Shown piece by piece: positions 27,025 through 30,566 of a stretch of 64,000 bases of DNA (position 1 is its first letter; every line of letters starts with the position of its first letter). The translations under genes and the position numbers were made by a program. The DNA comes from Isosphaera pallida ATCC 43644 (lineage in GTDB: Bacteria; Planctomycetota; Planctomycetia; Isosphaerales; Isosphaeraceae). The notes beneath the pieces were generated by a model. The model worked only from the letters and a program-made list of their open reading frames with translations, made no database searches and was not told the DNA's origin. The DNA lies in the NCBI RefSeq assembly GCF_000186345.1, contig NC_014962.1, forward strand, positions 620,001 to 684,000, given 5' to 3'.

Positions 27025-28866
27025 TTAATAATCCTCCGCCGAGATGATTTCCCCACCGTTACGGGTGCTGAGCATTTGCCAGACGCCCGAGGCGGGCACA
27101 TTCTCCCACCACCCTTGGCTGTGCTCGCTGGCTCCGACGGGAAGACCGCTGGCCACGTTATTGGGCCAGGAGGAGATGGTCTCTTTCACGAAACGAACCG
27201 AGCCGTCGCCCATCAGCGCGTTCAAGCCGCCGGGGTGGAGGCTCGACGCCGAGTGAATCCACCCCAAAGTTGCAACCCGGCTCAGTTTCTTGGGGGCGTT
27301 GGGCGGATACATCGTGGTGAAGACCGTATCGCCCCAGTTGCCGGCGACGTACCAACCAAACCGCTTGGAAAGCGAAGGATCCAGCGCGTCGAGTTCCCGA
27401 AGCAGGGTCGTGGCCTTTTCGGACACGAACAGGGTATGGCTCAGGCCGTCGCGGACCATCGCCAGGGTCACGGGTGAGAGGTCGTGAAAGACCCCGTTCA
27501 TTTGAGCGAACCTCATGGGAGGGACCACGCAGTTGTCCCAAGGCAACGGAAATCCATGAGTTCGAAGTGTGCCCATACACCCCACGTAACTGGTGAACAC
27601 CATTTGTAACCGCGTGTCGGGAGAAAGCAAGTCGTCCGGTGTGAATCTCCCCTCGAAGGCCATCTCGCGGGGCCGGCCCGAGTCAGGGTCGCTGGGACAG
27701 GCGTAAATCCCGACCGAAACGGTATGAATTGTCCGGTTCTCCACCCCGAAGACAGTCAAATTCTGATTAATCGCATTGTGAAGAGGAGTTTGTTCCACGA
27801 ACGGCAGAATAAAAACGTGGAGGCTTTTGTCAATGAGCAACGATGTGCAAGGTGGATTGGGACCGGAGTAGCGCGGATCGTAGGATTTGATGCGACCCGG
27901 CGGCAGACAACCGAACACGTCGTGGTAGTTCTGCAAGCCCAGACCAAATTGCTTGAGATGGTTGGCGCATTGCGCCCGTCGCGCCGCCTCCCGCGCGGAT
28001 TGGACGGCGGGGAGGAGCAAGGCGATCAGCGCCGCGATGACGGCGATCACCACCAGCAACTCGATCAGGGTGAACCCCGATCGCGCCGCGCTGAGAGAGG
28101 CCACCCGGTTCGACCTCAAGGCGACGACTCGGAGAACGATGGACACCAAGAGCGCGACAACCGCCAGACCCGCCCAGATGGACCAGGTGGGCCAGGCCGG
28201 TTCGCCCCCGGGCTCGAAGTCCAACAGTGAGTCGGGAAGACCAAACTGGCTGAGTTTGAATTGGGAATCCGCCACCTTGGTTGGTTCAAATGTCTCGAAT
28301 TGATGAATGTACTCTTCGGCTGCTCCTTTTGAAGGCACAAACTGACTCACGATCTCCTTGGGAAGGATCTCCCCTTTCGGCCCTCGCTGGTAACGAATCC
28401 GAGCCTTTTCTCGCATACCCGCCGGGGTACCCTCTCTGATTCCGCGAGGTAGGAGTTTGACGTCGTACTCCGCAATCGCCCAATCGGAGTTGGGAAGGAG
28501 GGTGACGCTTCCATCTCCAACCCAGTGGGAGGGGTCGTCACATCGGAACTCAAACTTGACTTGGGGTTCTCCTTCCGCCGAGAGTGATTCGGAAGTCTTG
28601 ACGATTCGGAACGAGGGATGTCCTAGGATCGTTTTGATTGGGACCATGCTGATTGTGAACGCGGCCTTGATCAGAGAGTCAACTTGGAGATCAAGGCTGA
28701 TCTGGAATTTGCGGTAATCTTGGCCTCCTTCTTTTTGGACAATCGCATTGACGACGAAAGGTTCATGTTCGGATTCTCGAGTAAGACGGAAGAAGTAATC
28801 GGAAGTTTCACATAGAACACTAGAGAAAGATGAGACCTCGTTCTTAAAAAAGAAAATTGTGTACAA
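27025..28866 (-). CDS. Exported-domain/DUF1559 prepilin fusion, main part of a split gene
   Basis: 613 codons from a TTG at 28866. Residues 1-220 belong to an extracytoplasmic domain of unknown function. A transmembrane helix follows (about 228-250). The loop [14 protein letters not shown] then leads into a type IV prepilin signal at about 264 ([17 protein letters not shown]). The remaining part is DUF1559: [25 protein letters not shown], then H-x9-DG near the end ([17 protein letters not shown]). A prepilin signal so far inside a protein is unusual. The natural N-terminus appears to be in 28877-29086; a TAA and a one-base T-run insertion separate the two frames, so this may be a pseudogene part. 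Confidence 0.75.
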
Positions 28867-28876
28867 ACATACGATT

Positions 28877-29086
28877 TTAATTTTGAGTGTAAATTAAAAA
28901 TCGGTATTCATGGTTTTTTCCTTCACGAGATGCTCCTTCGCATTGAACCTCAGCCACGGCGGTTTCGAGCTTGGCGGCGGCATCGGGGTATTCGGCCTTC
29001 AGCCGAGCTTCCCAGCCGGGTGGGTTTTCTTGAATGACCAGAGAGATCATCGCACCGAAAAAGAGAGAGCAAAGAAGTACCGGCAT
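28877..29086 (-). CDS. 5' part of the split prepilin-fusion gene (signal peptide and start of the exported domain)
   Basis: 69 codons from the ATG at 29086, preceded by GAGGTG. Residues 1-19 are a signal peptide ([19 protein letters not shown]), and the rest (about 20-69: [35 protein letters not shown]) looks like the opening of an exported beta/alpha domain. It stops at TAA 28877-28879. Without that stop, the same frame reads on as [10 protein letters not shown]. Removing one T from the six-T run at 28846-28851 would then join it to KNEVSSF in the downstream frame. I infer that the two open frames were once one gene of about 690 codons. Confidence 0.55.
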
Positions 29087-29106
29087 GGTTCACCTCAAAT
29101 AAATAA

Positions 29107-29137
29107 TAAGAGAGCCTTTGTTTTAAAGACTCTCTTA
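29107..29137 (-). terminator. Terminator/attenuator-like hairpin behind the Cys-rich gene
   Basis: On the minus strand TAAGAGAG...CTCTCTTA pairs over 8 bp, continues with a 4 bp CTTT/AAAG stem after one mismatch, and is followed by an A/T-rich TTATTATTTATTT stretch. It lies after the Cys-rich gene and directly before the ribosome site of the downstream gene, so it could be a partial terminator. Confidence 0.55.
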
Positions 29138-29141
29138 CTAC

Positions 29142-29174
29142 GATCAAGTTGATCATTTGGTAGTTAACTTGATC
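29142..29174. repeat. Inverted repeat after the Cys-rich gene
   Basis: GATCAAGTT (29142-29150) and AACTTGATC (29166-29174) are perfect 9-base inverted arms. It is a second hairpin just behind the stop codon of the Cys-rich gene. Confidence 0.6.
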
Positions 29175-29189
29175 ACGGACGCTATCGGA

Positions 29190-29420
29190 TCAGATCACAC
29201 AGAGGGTGCCAAAACACCTGCAATCGGCACACATAGCCGTGGGGCAGGTCACATTGCCTGTGCAAGTGCATTTCACATCGACACATTGGAGTGCGATTGG
29301 CGTCGGCGTTTGCGGATCATCAGCCCAGGAGTTTCCAGCCGAGGCGAACAGGGCGAGACCGAAGAGGAAGGTCGTGGCCGCCGCGCTCAGCGACGAACTG
29401 AGACGAATGAGGCGAGACAT
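29190..29420 (-). CDS. Secreted cysteine-rich mini-protein of unknown function
   Basis: 76 residues from the ATG at 29420, with AAAGAG upstream; an open frame extends to 29507 but lacks a ribosome site. Residues 1-32 form a clear Sec signal (hydrophobic core TTFLFGLALFASAG, cleavage expected after SWA). The mature part of about 43 residues has eight cysteines in its last 31 residues (spacing C-x4-C-x-C-x5-C-x4-C-x2-C-x-C-x4-C), so a disulfide-knotted or metal-binding mini-protein is likely. It is encoded between a DUF1573 gene and the prepilin fusion, and terminator-like hairpins follow it. No family is recognised. Confidence 0.65.
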   Translation of the reverse strand: MSRLIRLSSSLSAAATTFLFGLALFASAGNSWADDPQTPTPIALQCVDVKCTCTGNVTCPTAMCADCRCFGTLCVI

Positions 29421-29503
29421 TGAGACTCTTTGTGGGTTGGTGAGAAACGGAGAAAGAAGGGAGACAGTGGGAAAGGTCGTCCATAACCCGACGGACCTGA
29501 ACA

Positions 29504-30046
29504 TCACTTCCTTGATTCGTTGGGGATGGTCTTTTCAAGATTCTCTTGGACGAGTTCCTCGATGGAGCGTCCCGCGGACCTCACGACTCCCGAGACTCGC
29601 AGTCCAACGGTTCGGTGTTTGCGGTCATCGGTGAAAAGGAGAATCTCTTGGCTGACCGGGCCTTCGTCCTCCAGGGTCGTCTTGAGTTTGACGTTGAGCG
29701 GCCGCGTTTCGCCGGGAGGGATCGTCATTGGCAGATCCCCAGTGGCAACGCAGGTGCAAACCGACTGCGCGCCGACGATGGTGATTGGCTGAGTCTTCCA
29801 GTTCGTGAGGTGAAAGACGACAATTCCGTCGGTCCCTCGATCAATGGTTCCGAATGATTTGGAATGCGTGTCCGGGATCAATCGCGCGCCCGCCAAATAG
29901 GCCGAGGCGACGCCGATGGAGCCAAACCACGCGAAGACCCAGGTCGCGAGTCCGATCAGACCAACGCTTGCGACGATCAACGCTGGTCCCAACTTGACCC
30001 TGAATTGCGAGGGCGCGACCTTGGATTCGATCATGTTTATCGACAT
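29504..30046 (-). CDS. DUF1573-family membrane-anchored protein
   Basis: 180 residues from the ATG at 30046, with AAGGAGTG before it; its ATG overlaps the stop of the upstream broken gene (TGATG). An N-terminal anchor helix (about 22-48) is followed by a DUF1573 domain, an Ig-like beta-sandwich: FGTIDRGTDGIVVFHLTN, a Cys pair in SVCTCVAT, IPPGETRPLNVKLKT and LFTDDRKHRTVGLRVSGVV. DUF1573 proteins are exported, and in several bacteria they are encoded next to secreted small proteins. The role is unknown. Confidence 0.8.
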   Translation of the reverse strand: MSINMIESKVAPSQFRVKLGPALIVASVGLIGLATWVFAWFGSIGVASAYLAGARLIPDTHSKSFGTIDRGTDGIVVFHLTNWKTQPITIVGAQSVCTCVATGDLPMTIPPGETRPLNVKLKTTLEDEGPVSQEILLFTDDRKHRTVGLRVSGVVRSAGRSIEELVQENLEKTIPNESRK

Positions 30047-30566
30047 CACTCCTTGTCTCGTGGCGCTGGTACGAACATCGCCGGTGTCGGAGAAACACGC
30101 GCCCGATCCTCGCCGACTTCCAACTCCACCTTGGTCCGAAAGAGAACCTCGTTTCGCGGGTTCCGACCAGTCAACGCGACCGCGAGCCTTCCCCGGAAAT
30201 CGGGGTTGTGCGTGGGATCGAAGATCACCACGAGACGAGCGGATTCGCCGGCGCGAGATGGATGGGTGATGGGCTTGCTTGAACGCAAGGACAAGTCGAT
30301 TCCACTCGCGCAAGCGTCACGGAGTCATCGCTTGGGTTTTGCAGCTTCAAGAGGTGTTGGGCGGATTGCCCAGGCGCAAGCTGTCACAGCGACACCGGAT
30401 CAGGTGCCACATGAAGGGGGAAAAGCCGCTCCGCGGGTGGCGTGGAATGGGAACGGTTCAGGTTGGACCAAGCCAGCGTCGTGAAGACGAAAACCAGGAG
30501 GGCGGCCAAACCAATTCGAACGAATCGCACGTTCAGCCGTGTCGAGTCGGCCAGTCTCGTGGGCAT
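30046..30566 (-). pseudogene. Second DUF1573-like gene, broken by a stop and a frameshift
   Basis: The frame starts at ATG 30566 with a membrane anchor (LNVRFVRIGLAALLVFVFTTLAW) and stops at TGA 30384-30386. Reading past that stop, the same frame gives QLAPGQSAQHLLKLQNP, VTLARVESTCPCVQASP and IHLAP, a typical DUF1573 core including the Cys pair. The match then continues only in another frame (GESARLVVIFDPTHNPDFRG, ending RDKE at 30046), which requires a one-base deletion near 30253. Two lesions in one gene suggest decay. The C-terminal fragment still ends in a TGATG overlap with the next gene. Confidence 0.7.

Follow-up and report, generated by a model that had tools for sequence, protein, structure and literature searches.

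A probable exchangeable pair of cysteine-rich mini-protein and membrane-anchored protein in a DUF1573/DUF1559 cassette of planctomycetes

The genome of Isosphaera pallida ATCC 43644 contains, within a stretch of 64,000 nucleotides (contig NC_014962.1, positions 620,001 to 684,000; hereafter the window, in whose coordinates positions are given unless a locus is named), a minus-strand cassette (27025-30566) in which a 76-codon gene (29190-29420) for a cysteine-rich mini-protein lies behind genes of the DUF1573 family and ahead of genes for a membrane-anchored protein, designated NTD, and a DUF1559 prepilin. The mini-protein and NTD very probably form an exchangeable cognate pair, and, as judged from the sequences of relatives rather than from the window copy, the variable parts that are exchanged together are the mature mini-protein and the NTD ectodomain, not DUF1573 or the prepilin. 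The pair behaves as an exchangeable specificity cassette, which suggests, by analogy, a toxin-immunity or self-recognition system. A sequence-only reading of the window had proposed that the mini-protein is a secreted product accompanied by DUF1573 and prepilin partners; the survey bears this out, in that the mini-protein is predicted to be the secreted cysteine-rich product of a cassette that recurs with the same gene order in dozens of planctomycete genomes, and it adds a constant fourth partner, NTD, which that reading had overlooked.

Joint exchange of the mature mini-protein and the NTD ectodomain

Exchange as a pattern is visible in the loci of Planctopirus limnophila (L170) and a congener (L169), which lie in genomes of one and two contigs; several loci of the survey come from metagenome assemblies, in which repeats may have been misjoined. 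BLAST aligns L169 and L170 in two blocks, each at 92.7% identity: one covers 2.5 kb upstream and extends into the signal peptide of the mini-protein, the other covers 3.2 kb from the last part of the NTD1 gene on, and there is no match between them. Per 100 bases, most values are at 85-99% in the flanking DNA and at 36-65% in the low-identity block, which runs from the mature part of the mini-protein through the NTD1 ectodomain. In the two NTD1 proteins, amino acid identity is 33% for the first 285 residues of the alignment and rises to 73% for the final 94. Third codon positions in the cysteine-rich part of the mini-protein agree at 0.32 and are thus saturated, so the two alleles diverged long before the Planctopirus genomes around them separated. 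The Planctopirus locus points to allele replacement rather than fast point mutation.

Tandem mini-protein/NTD units within single genomes (L109, L187/L232, L194, L200 and L245) have signal peptides that are 96-100% identical in amino acid sequence. Nineteen within-genome pairs whose signal peptides exceed 0.6 in identity were compared, and 18 of them have cysteine-rich parts at 0.20-0.41 and ectodomains at 0.02-0.44, near background, together with NTD tails at 0.82-0.94; the exceptional pair (L189) is a recent duplicate of the whole unit, in which the cysteine-rich part (0.80) and the ectodomain (0.90) have both been kept. One genome encodes five mini-proteins with a common signal peptide (MKKLWNDWSGPVAFTLG..VWAD) and five differing cysteine-rich parts, and its units agree in DNA sequence at 88-98% over the signal peptide and at 82-91% over the final 150 bases of NTD, whereas identity drops to about 50% for the mature part and for the first 700 bases of the NTD gene. 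The reverse case is L192, where the mini-proteins and NTDs are related and the signal peptides are unrelated. Because the exchange pattern, the L189 duplicate and L192 agree, the mature peptide and the ectodomain move together. An exception is the NTD of L204, which is 98% identical to that of L128 yet has no mini-protein in front; the 98% identity of these two loci covers NTD and the prepilin, the mini-protein and DUF1573 are present in front in L128 only, and an inverted repeat is found at the break.

In the proposed mechanism, DUF1573 and the DUF1559 prepilin would be the constant, shared parts of a recombining specificity cassette, and the variable unit would consist of adjacent genes for a small Sec-exported disulfide-rich peptide and for NTD, which is predicted to have a signal peptide, a LolA/LolB-fold ectodomain outside the inner membrane, a C-terminal transmembrane helix and a basic tail. 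We infer that the mature peptide and the ectodomain are swapped as a unit by homologous recombination acting on the nearly identical DNA that encodes the signal peptide and the 3' anchor of NTD. The peptide would be exported by Sec, oxidised, and released or displayed, perhaps via a DUF1559 pseudopilus; the NTD ectodomain would bind its cognate peptide specifically at the membrane of the producer itself; and DUF1573 may have a role in the release or display of the peptide, in keeping with the earlier suggestion that DUF1573 and the prepilin are surface or export partners of the mini-protein.

Recurrence of the cassette and the mini-protein family

Regions around relatives of DUF1573 and NTD were surveyed in 45 Isosphaeraceae genomes. 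The order on one strand is one or two DUF1573 genes, mini-protein, NTD and DUF1559, which was seen across Isosphaeraceae and other Planctomycetia, and 64 mini-protein/NTD pairs (including the truncated L093) were catalogued from at least four planctomycete families. As an independent test, 248 genomes of the class were searched with a profile (A2) of 29 aligned mini-proteins, in which five cysteine columns are invariant. Families not represented in the alignment yielded new members, with E values down to 1e-17, and 11 of the 12 new matches at E up to 1e-4 are inside the cassette, the exception being L193. An NTD motif pattern matched 34 stretches in 84,980 genomes; about 30 are from planctomycetes, and more mini-proteins were found among them. 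In a slot control by a purely compositional criterion, which left out the window and the loci fetched via mini-proteins and ignored kinship among loci, an open reading frame (ORF) for a signal peptide plus a cysteine-rich part was directly upstream of 48 of 113 NTD genes versus 1 of 241 other genes (Fisher p=1.3e-26). With all loci counted, such an ORF was found before 61 of 130 NTD genes and behind 49 of 82 DUF1573 genes, compared to none of 57 prepilin genes and 2 of 293 other genes. Homologs with conserved cysteines and with DUF1573 and prepilin neighbours were found, contrary to the condition that the sequence-only reading had named for its own refutation. Many NTD genes have no mini-protein upstream and are in excess over the mini-proteins. 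A longer conserved neighbourhood was rejected because the flanking genes tested (LepA, apolipoprotein N-acyltransferase, MacB-type transporter, PSD1, YTV and AAA/OLD) vary between loci. Just behind the P. limnophila cassette is an OLD-like AAA/TOPRIM gene (L170:7877-9838), of a type frequent in phage defence, which is absent from the same place in L169, and large ORFs of 660-800 residues with no Pfam match are found directly upstream of the cassette in three genomes (L104:517-2511, L106:736-3129, L114:567-2882).

The mini-proteins are apparently an undescribed family of secreted cysteine-rich proteins of planctomycetes, and no description of such a system was found in the literature searched (an open-licence subset). 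The small ORF at this position in relatives encodes a signal peptide and 6-16 cysteines, with mature parts of 40-100 residues. The number of cysteines is even in 45 of 52 mature mini-proteins (p=7e-8), as expected for disulfides, which are predicted, and the last cysteine is usually no more than 5 residues from the C-terminal end. The signal peptide cleavage site is AxA-like in 61 of 64 mini-proteins and lipobox-like in just 2 of 64, which rejects the possibility that they are lipoproteins. By sequence, therefore, with a Sec signal, no lipobox and paired cysteines, they are predicted disulfide-rich secreted peptides. The mature parts are mostly acidic, with a median net charge of -3, and an identity as cationic antimicrobial peptides was rejected because of these mostly negative charges. 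Neither Pfam nor NCBIfam has a family for the window mini-protein, and an NCBIfam scan of the 29 aligned mini-proteins gave no meaningful match (best E 0.029, to an unrelated model). The AF2 (AlphaFold 2) model of the window mini-protein has a predicted local distance difference test (pLDDT) score of about 50-56 in the mature part and is not interpretable. Searches with a single mini-protein sequence are misleading because the cysteine frame alone is conserved.

NTD and the cassette copy of the window

The 250 N-terminal residues of a 613-residue ORF of the window (27025-28866), which have no Pfam or NCBIfam match, proved on searching in relatives to be the main part of a separate protein, NTD, of about 330-400 residues, with a signal peptide, an EYPxAxxxL-like motif, an FTLxAFGLPE motif, a transmembrane helix and a basic tail. 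Twenty NTDs gave no match in Pfam and NCBIfam except for a fused prepilin, a sequence match to a LolA-type family was not detectable in either database, and a sequence search of the PDB with NTD found none. The structure of the NTD of a relative (L249) was modelled by AF2 with 30 sequences, and the model (mean pLDDT 85.6) consists of a signal helix, a sheet of about 12 strands and a C-terminal transmembrane helix (residues 302-328). Residues 36-288 align with LolA, LolB and related proteins in both Foldseek and VIA-align, with a Foldseek E value of 2.1e-8 to LolA3 and VIA-align Z scores of 12.3 to 3bk5 (root-mean-square deviation 5.0 over 206 residues) and 11.5 to LolB. On the basis of this model of a relative, NTD is a membrane-anchored protein with a predicted LolA/LolB fold.

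The C-terminus of NTD resembles a three-part sorting signal (FTLSAFGLPEP, a transmembrane helix and an arginine-rich end), and one NTD has a weak match to the LPxTATN sorting domain (E 0.014). One genus of a neighbouring family has NTD and DUF1573 in a single protein of about 430 residues, with no mini-protein gene (L165:5066-6352, L165:6482-7774, L166:5057-6355, L167:5080-6366), and these fusions link NTD and DUF1573 functionally. NTD-prepilin fusions resembling that of the window are found in L119 and L206. Tandem arrays of NTD genes, with variable ectodomains and constant tails, are found in L171, L161, L163 and L239; most or all of the copies have no mini-protein, and some arrays alternate with DUF1559 prepilins or DUF1573. 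By analogy, these arrays look like spare immunity or receptor genes.

The gene order of the window from 30566 to 27025, all on one strand, is a broken DUF1573 gene, an intact DUF1573 gene, the mini-protein gene, two hairpins, a small ORF and the 613-residue ORF, and the features that the sequence-only reading had described here (an eight-cysteine mini-protein, two DUF1573-type genes of which one is broken, two hairpins and a prepilin fusion) all held on closer analysis. The broken DUF1573 gene (30046-30566, minus strand, as are all of these features) has an in-frame TGA followed by the C-terminal half in another frame, and a 41-residue piece of it still scores 5e-9 against the DUF1573 profile. 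A selenoprotein was ruled out because the TGA is off the CxC position and the frame changes behind it (the NCBIfam seleno DUF1573-like model scores the intact gene), and simple decay or a sequencing error is preferred. The apparently intact DUF1573 gene (29504-30046) encodes an N-terminal transmembrane segment and an Ig-like DUF1573 domain (PF07610, E=4.9e-10, 39.7 bits versus a Pfam gathering cut-off of 26.1). The mini-protein gene encodes 76 residues, of which residues 1-33 (29322-29420) are the predicted signal peptide (..GNSWA/DD..) and 43 residues (29193-29321) are the mature part, with eight cysteines arranged as C-x4-C-x-C-x5-C-x4-C-x2-C-x-C-x4-C. Directly 3' of it are two RNA hairpins (about 29142-29174 and 29103-29141), a possible terminator or attenuator, with z = -5.9 versus dinucleotide shuffles, among the strongest in the family; across the family, mean z is -1.47 behind the mini-protein versus -0.43 upstream, and z is below -2 in 27% versus 9%. 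Rfam has no RNA family in the 64-kb window. A reasonable reading of the sequence is that the hairpins may act as an attenuator by which the mini-protein is made in excess of NTD.

The NTD gene of the window falls into two pieces at a frame break near 28870, in an unusually A+T-rich segment (28820-28930). Its N-terminal piece (28877-29086), which contains the signal peptide and the sequence EYPDAAAKL and was recognised by the NTD profile (E=4e-8) and by alignment with intact relatives, is in a different frame from the remainder (28087-28866; E=3.7e-72 to the NTD profile), which contains the LolA-like ectodomain and the transmembrane anchor and is fused in frame to the DUF1559 prepilin (27025-28086). 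The prepilin has a prepilin signal and an H-X9-DG end and is matched by PF07596 (E=4.8e-47, 161.7 bits versus a cut-off of 23.3), by PF07963 for its N-terminal motif (E=3e-5, 23.8 bits versus a cut-off of 21.2) and by TIGR04294. The I. pallida genome has five cassette loci (the window and L090-L093), some of them damaged; in L093 (G000:C2:4534158-4535386) the mini-protein is truncated and NTD is interrupted by a stop. Because the window and L093 are damaged, several of the I. pallida copies look decayed, and the window copy may be partly decayed, or its frame breaks may be sequencing errors.

Possible functions and comparison with known systems

A constant signal peptide and anchor, together with a swapped mature peptide and ectodomain, point strongly to conflict or recognition. 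The purpose to which most weight is given here, a little short of an even chance, is antagonism among close relatives, in which the peptide would be a toxin and NTD would confer self-immunity, by analogy with systems in which the two are jointly replaced, the partner is downstream and spare immunity genes occur, as mini-protein-less NTDs might be. Several results weigh against this purpose. No toxin family was found for the 29 mini-proteins and no known immunity family was recognised among the cassette proteins in Pfam or NCBIfam, the mature mini-proteins are unlike cationic antimicrobial peptides in charge, and the usual ligands of LolA folds are lipids or lipoproteins. L117 and L118 have a uniform 80% identity with no exchange, the window itself gives no sign of recent exchange (its paralogues have diverged and it has a split NTD), and a Mantel comparison of cysteine-rich parts with ectodomains gave a significant r of 0.42 that is carried by two close pairs, with a rank r of 0.02. 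In favour of this purpose, the net charges of mini-protein and ectodomain have a weak negative correlation (rho -0.31, p 0.026, kinship among loci ignored).

Ranked next most likely, as a tentative possibility, is a ligand-receptor pair for recognition of self or kin or for a species-specific signal, in which the mini-protein would be the ligand and NTD a polymorphic receptor or co-receptor. Its architecture of conserved signal peptide, cysteine framework, linked polymorphic ectodomain and constant anchor is like that of the Brassica S-locus, the mini-proteins are acidic and do not look lytic, and Isosphaera grows as filaments. Other planctomycetes form rosettes (PMC3035269), and filament and rosette growth are settings in which recognition could matter. 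However, the cytoplasmic tail of NTD is short and has no signalling domain, many NTDs have no mini-protein, and the cassette has no dedicated regulator. In its fuller form, to be entertained with the same reserve, many allelic, co-exchanged pairs of peptide and LolA-fold receptor would decide self versus non-self among close relatives, and DUF1573 and DUF1559 could be their shared export or display machinery.

It is rather unlikely that the mini-protein is instead a disulfide-linked structural or adhesive part of a protein-rich envelope or pilus-associated fibre, with NTD as its dedicated LolA-like escort and with phage, grazers or substrate as the drivers of diversity. The cassette does contain a prepilin, LolA-fold carriers escort exported clients, and a client and its escort would be co-exchanged too, but several mini-proteins per genome with unrelated mature parts, and their absence from many genomes, fit an essential wall part poorly. 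In Bacteroidetes, NVEALA-type small exported proteins are found beside DUF1573, and a small exported cysteine-containing protein adjoining DUF1573 led the sequence-only reading to propose a planctomycete counterpart; this link was not borne out, since the 29 mini-proteins had only noise-level and no relevant matches at E up to 1 in NCBIfam (which is understood to contain an NVEALA model), the open-licence literature searched had no text on NVEALA, and the variable NTD and the prepilin are foreign to that picture, which makes such a counterpart very improbable. A chance cysteine-rich frame beside unrelated genes, which the failure of the window mini-protein as a single query to find a clear homolog in the 45 Isosphaeraceae genomes might suggest, has practically no probability and is rejected by the profile members at the right place in independent families and by the slot control.

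If antagonism or recognition is correct, the cassette would stand either for a new type of peptide antagonism, in which the peptide has its cognate immunity protein, or for a recognition locus of bacteria built from a ligand and its receptor, and it offers a testable function for three orphan planctomycete groups, namely DUF1573 and DUF1559 in this context and the unnamed NTD family. A genome-wide analysis of essential genes has been carried out in Planctopirus limnophila (PMC10632474), and because a cassette copy is present in this species, deleting the genes and mixing the strains looks feasible there.

The window genes are clear members of DUF1573 (PF07610) and DUF1559 (PF07596), two families of unknown function; P. 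limnophila has 68 DUF1559 paralogs (PMC10632474), and because the family is so large in planctomycetes, the presence of DUF1559 alone says little. The NTD ectodomain model matches periplasmic proteins of the LolA/LolB/RseB fold (Z 12.3, Foldseek E 2e-8), but unlike them NTD has a C-terminal transmembrane anchor, is hypervariable and is paired with a peptide gene. Conotoxin precursors likewise have a conserved signal peptide and a hypervariable mature peptide on a cysteine framework (PMC11860864), but they belong to animal venoms, have no linked partner gene and owe their diversity to gene duplication and mutation.

Polymorphic toxin-immunity loci, including those of contact-dependent inhibition, have a constant trafficking part, an exchangeable effector part, an adjacent downstream partner that is co-exchanged and spare partner copies, and toxin followed by immunity is their commonest pair order (PMC3482391). 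Relatives of the window cassette have the corresponding constant trafficking region with an exchanged C-terminal part and the co-exchanged adjacent partner; no recognisable toxin domain was found in them. The cassette differs in that its constant part is a Sec signal peptide only, its putative effector is a disulfide-rich peptide of 40-100 residues without a known toxin domain, and this peptide is paired with a large LolA-fold protein anchored in the membrane. In Brassica, SCR/SP11 is a small secreted peptide with a framework of 8 cysteines, the number in the window mini-protein, and is tightly linked to SRK, whose ectodomain is polymorphic and whose membrane part is constant (PMC13033167); that system differs in being a plant receptor kinase of sexual self-incompatibility, and homology is not expected. 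With its jointly replaced two-gene units, downstream partner and spare partners, the cassette resembles toxin-immunity loci and, equally, SCR/SRK.
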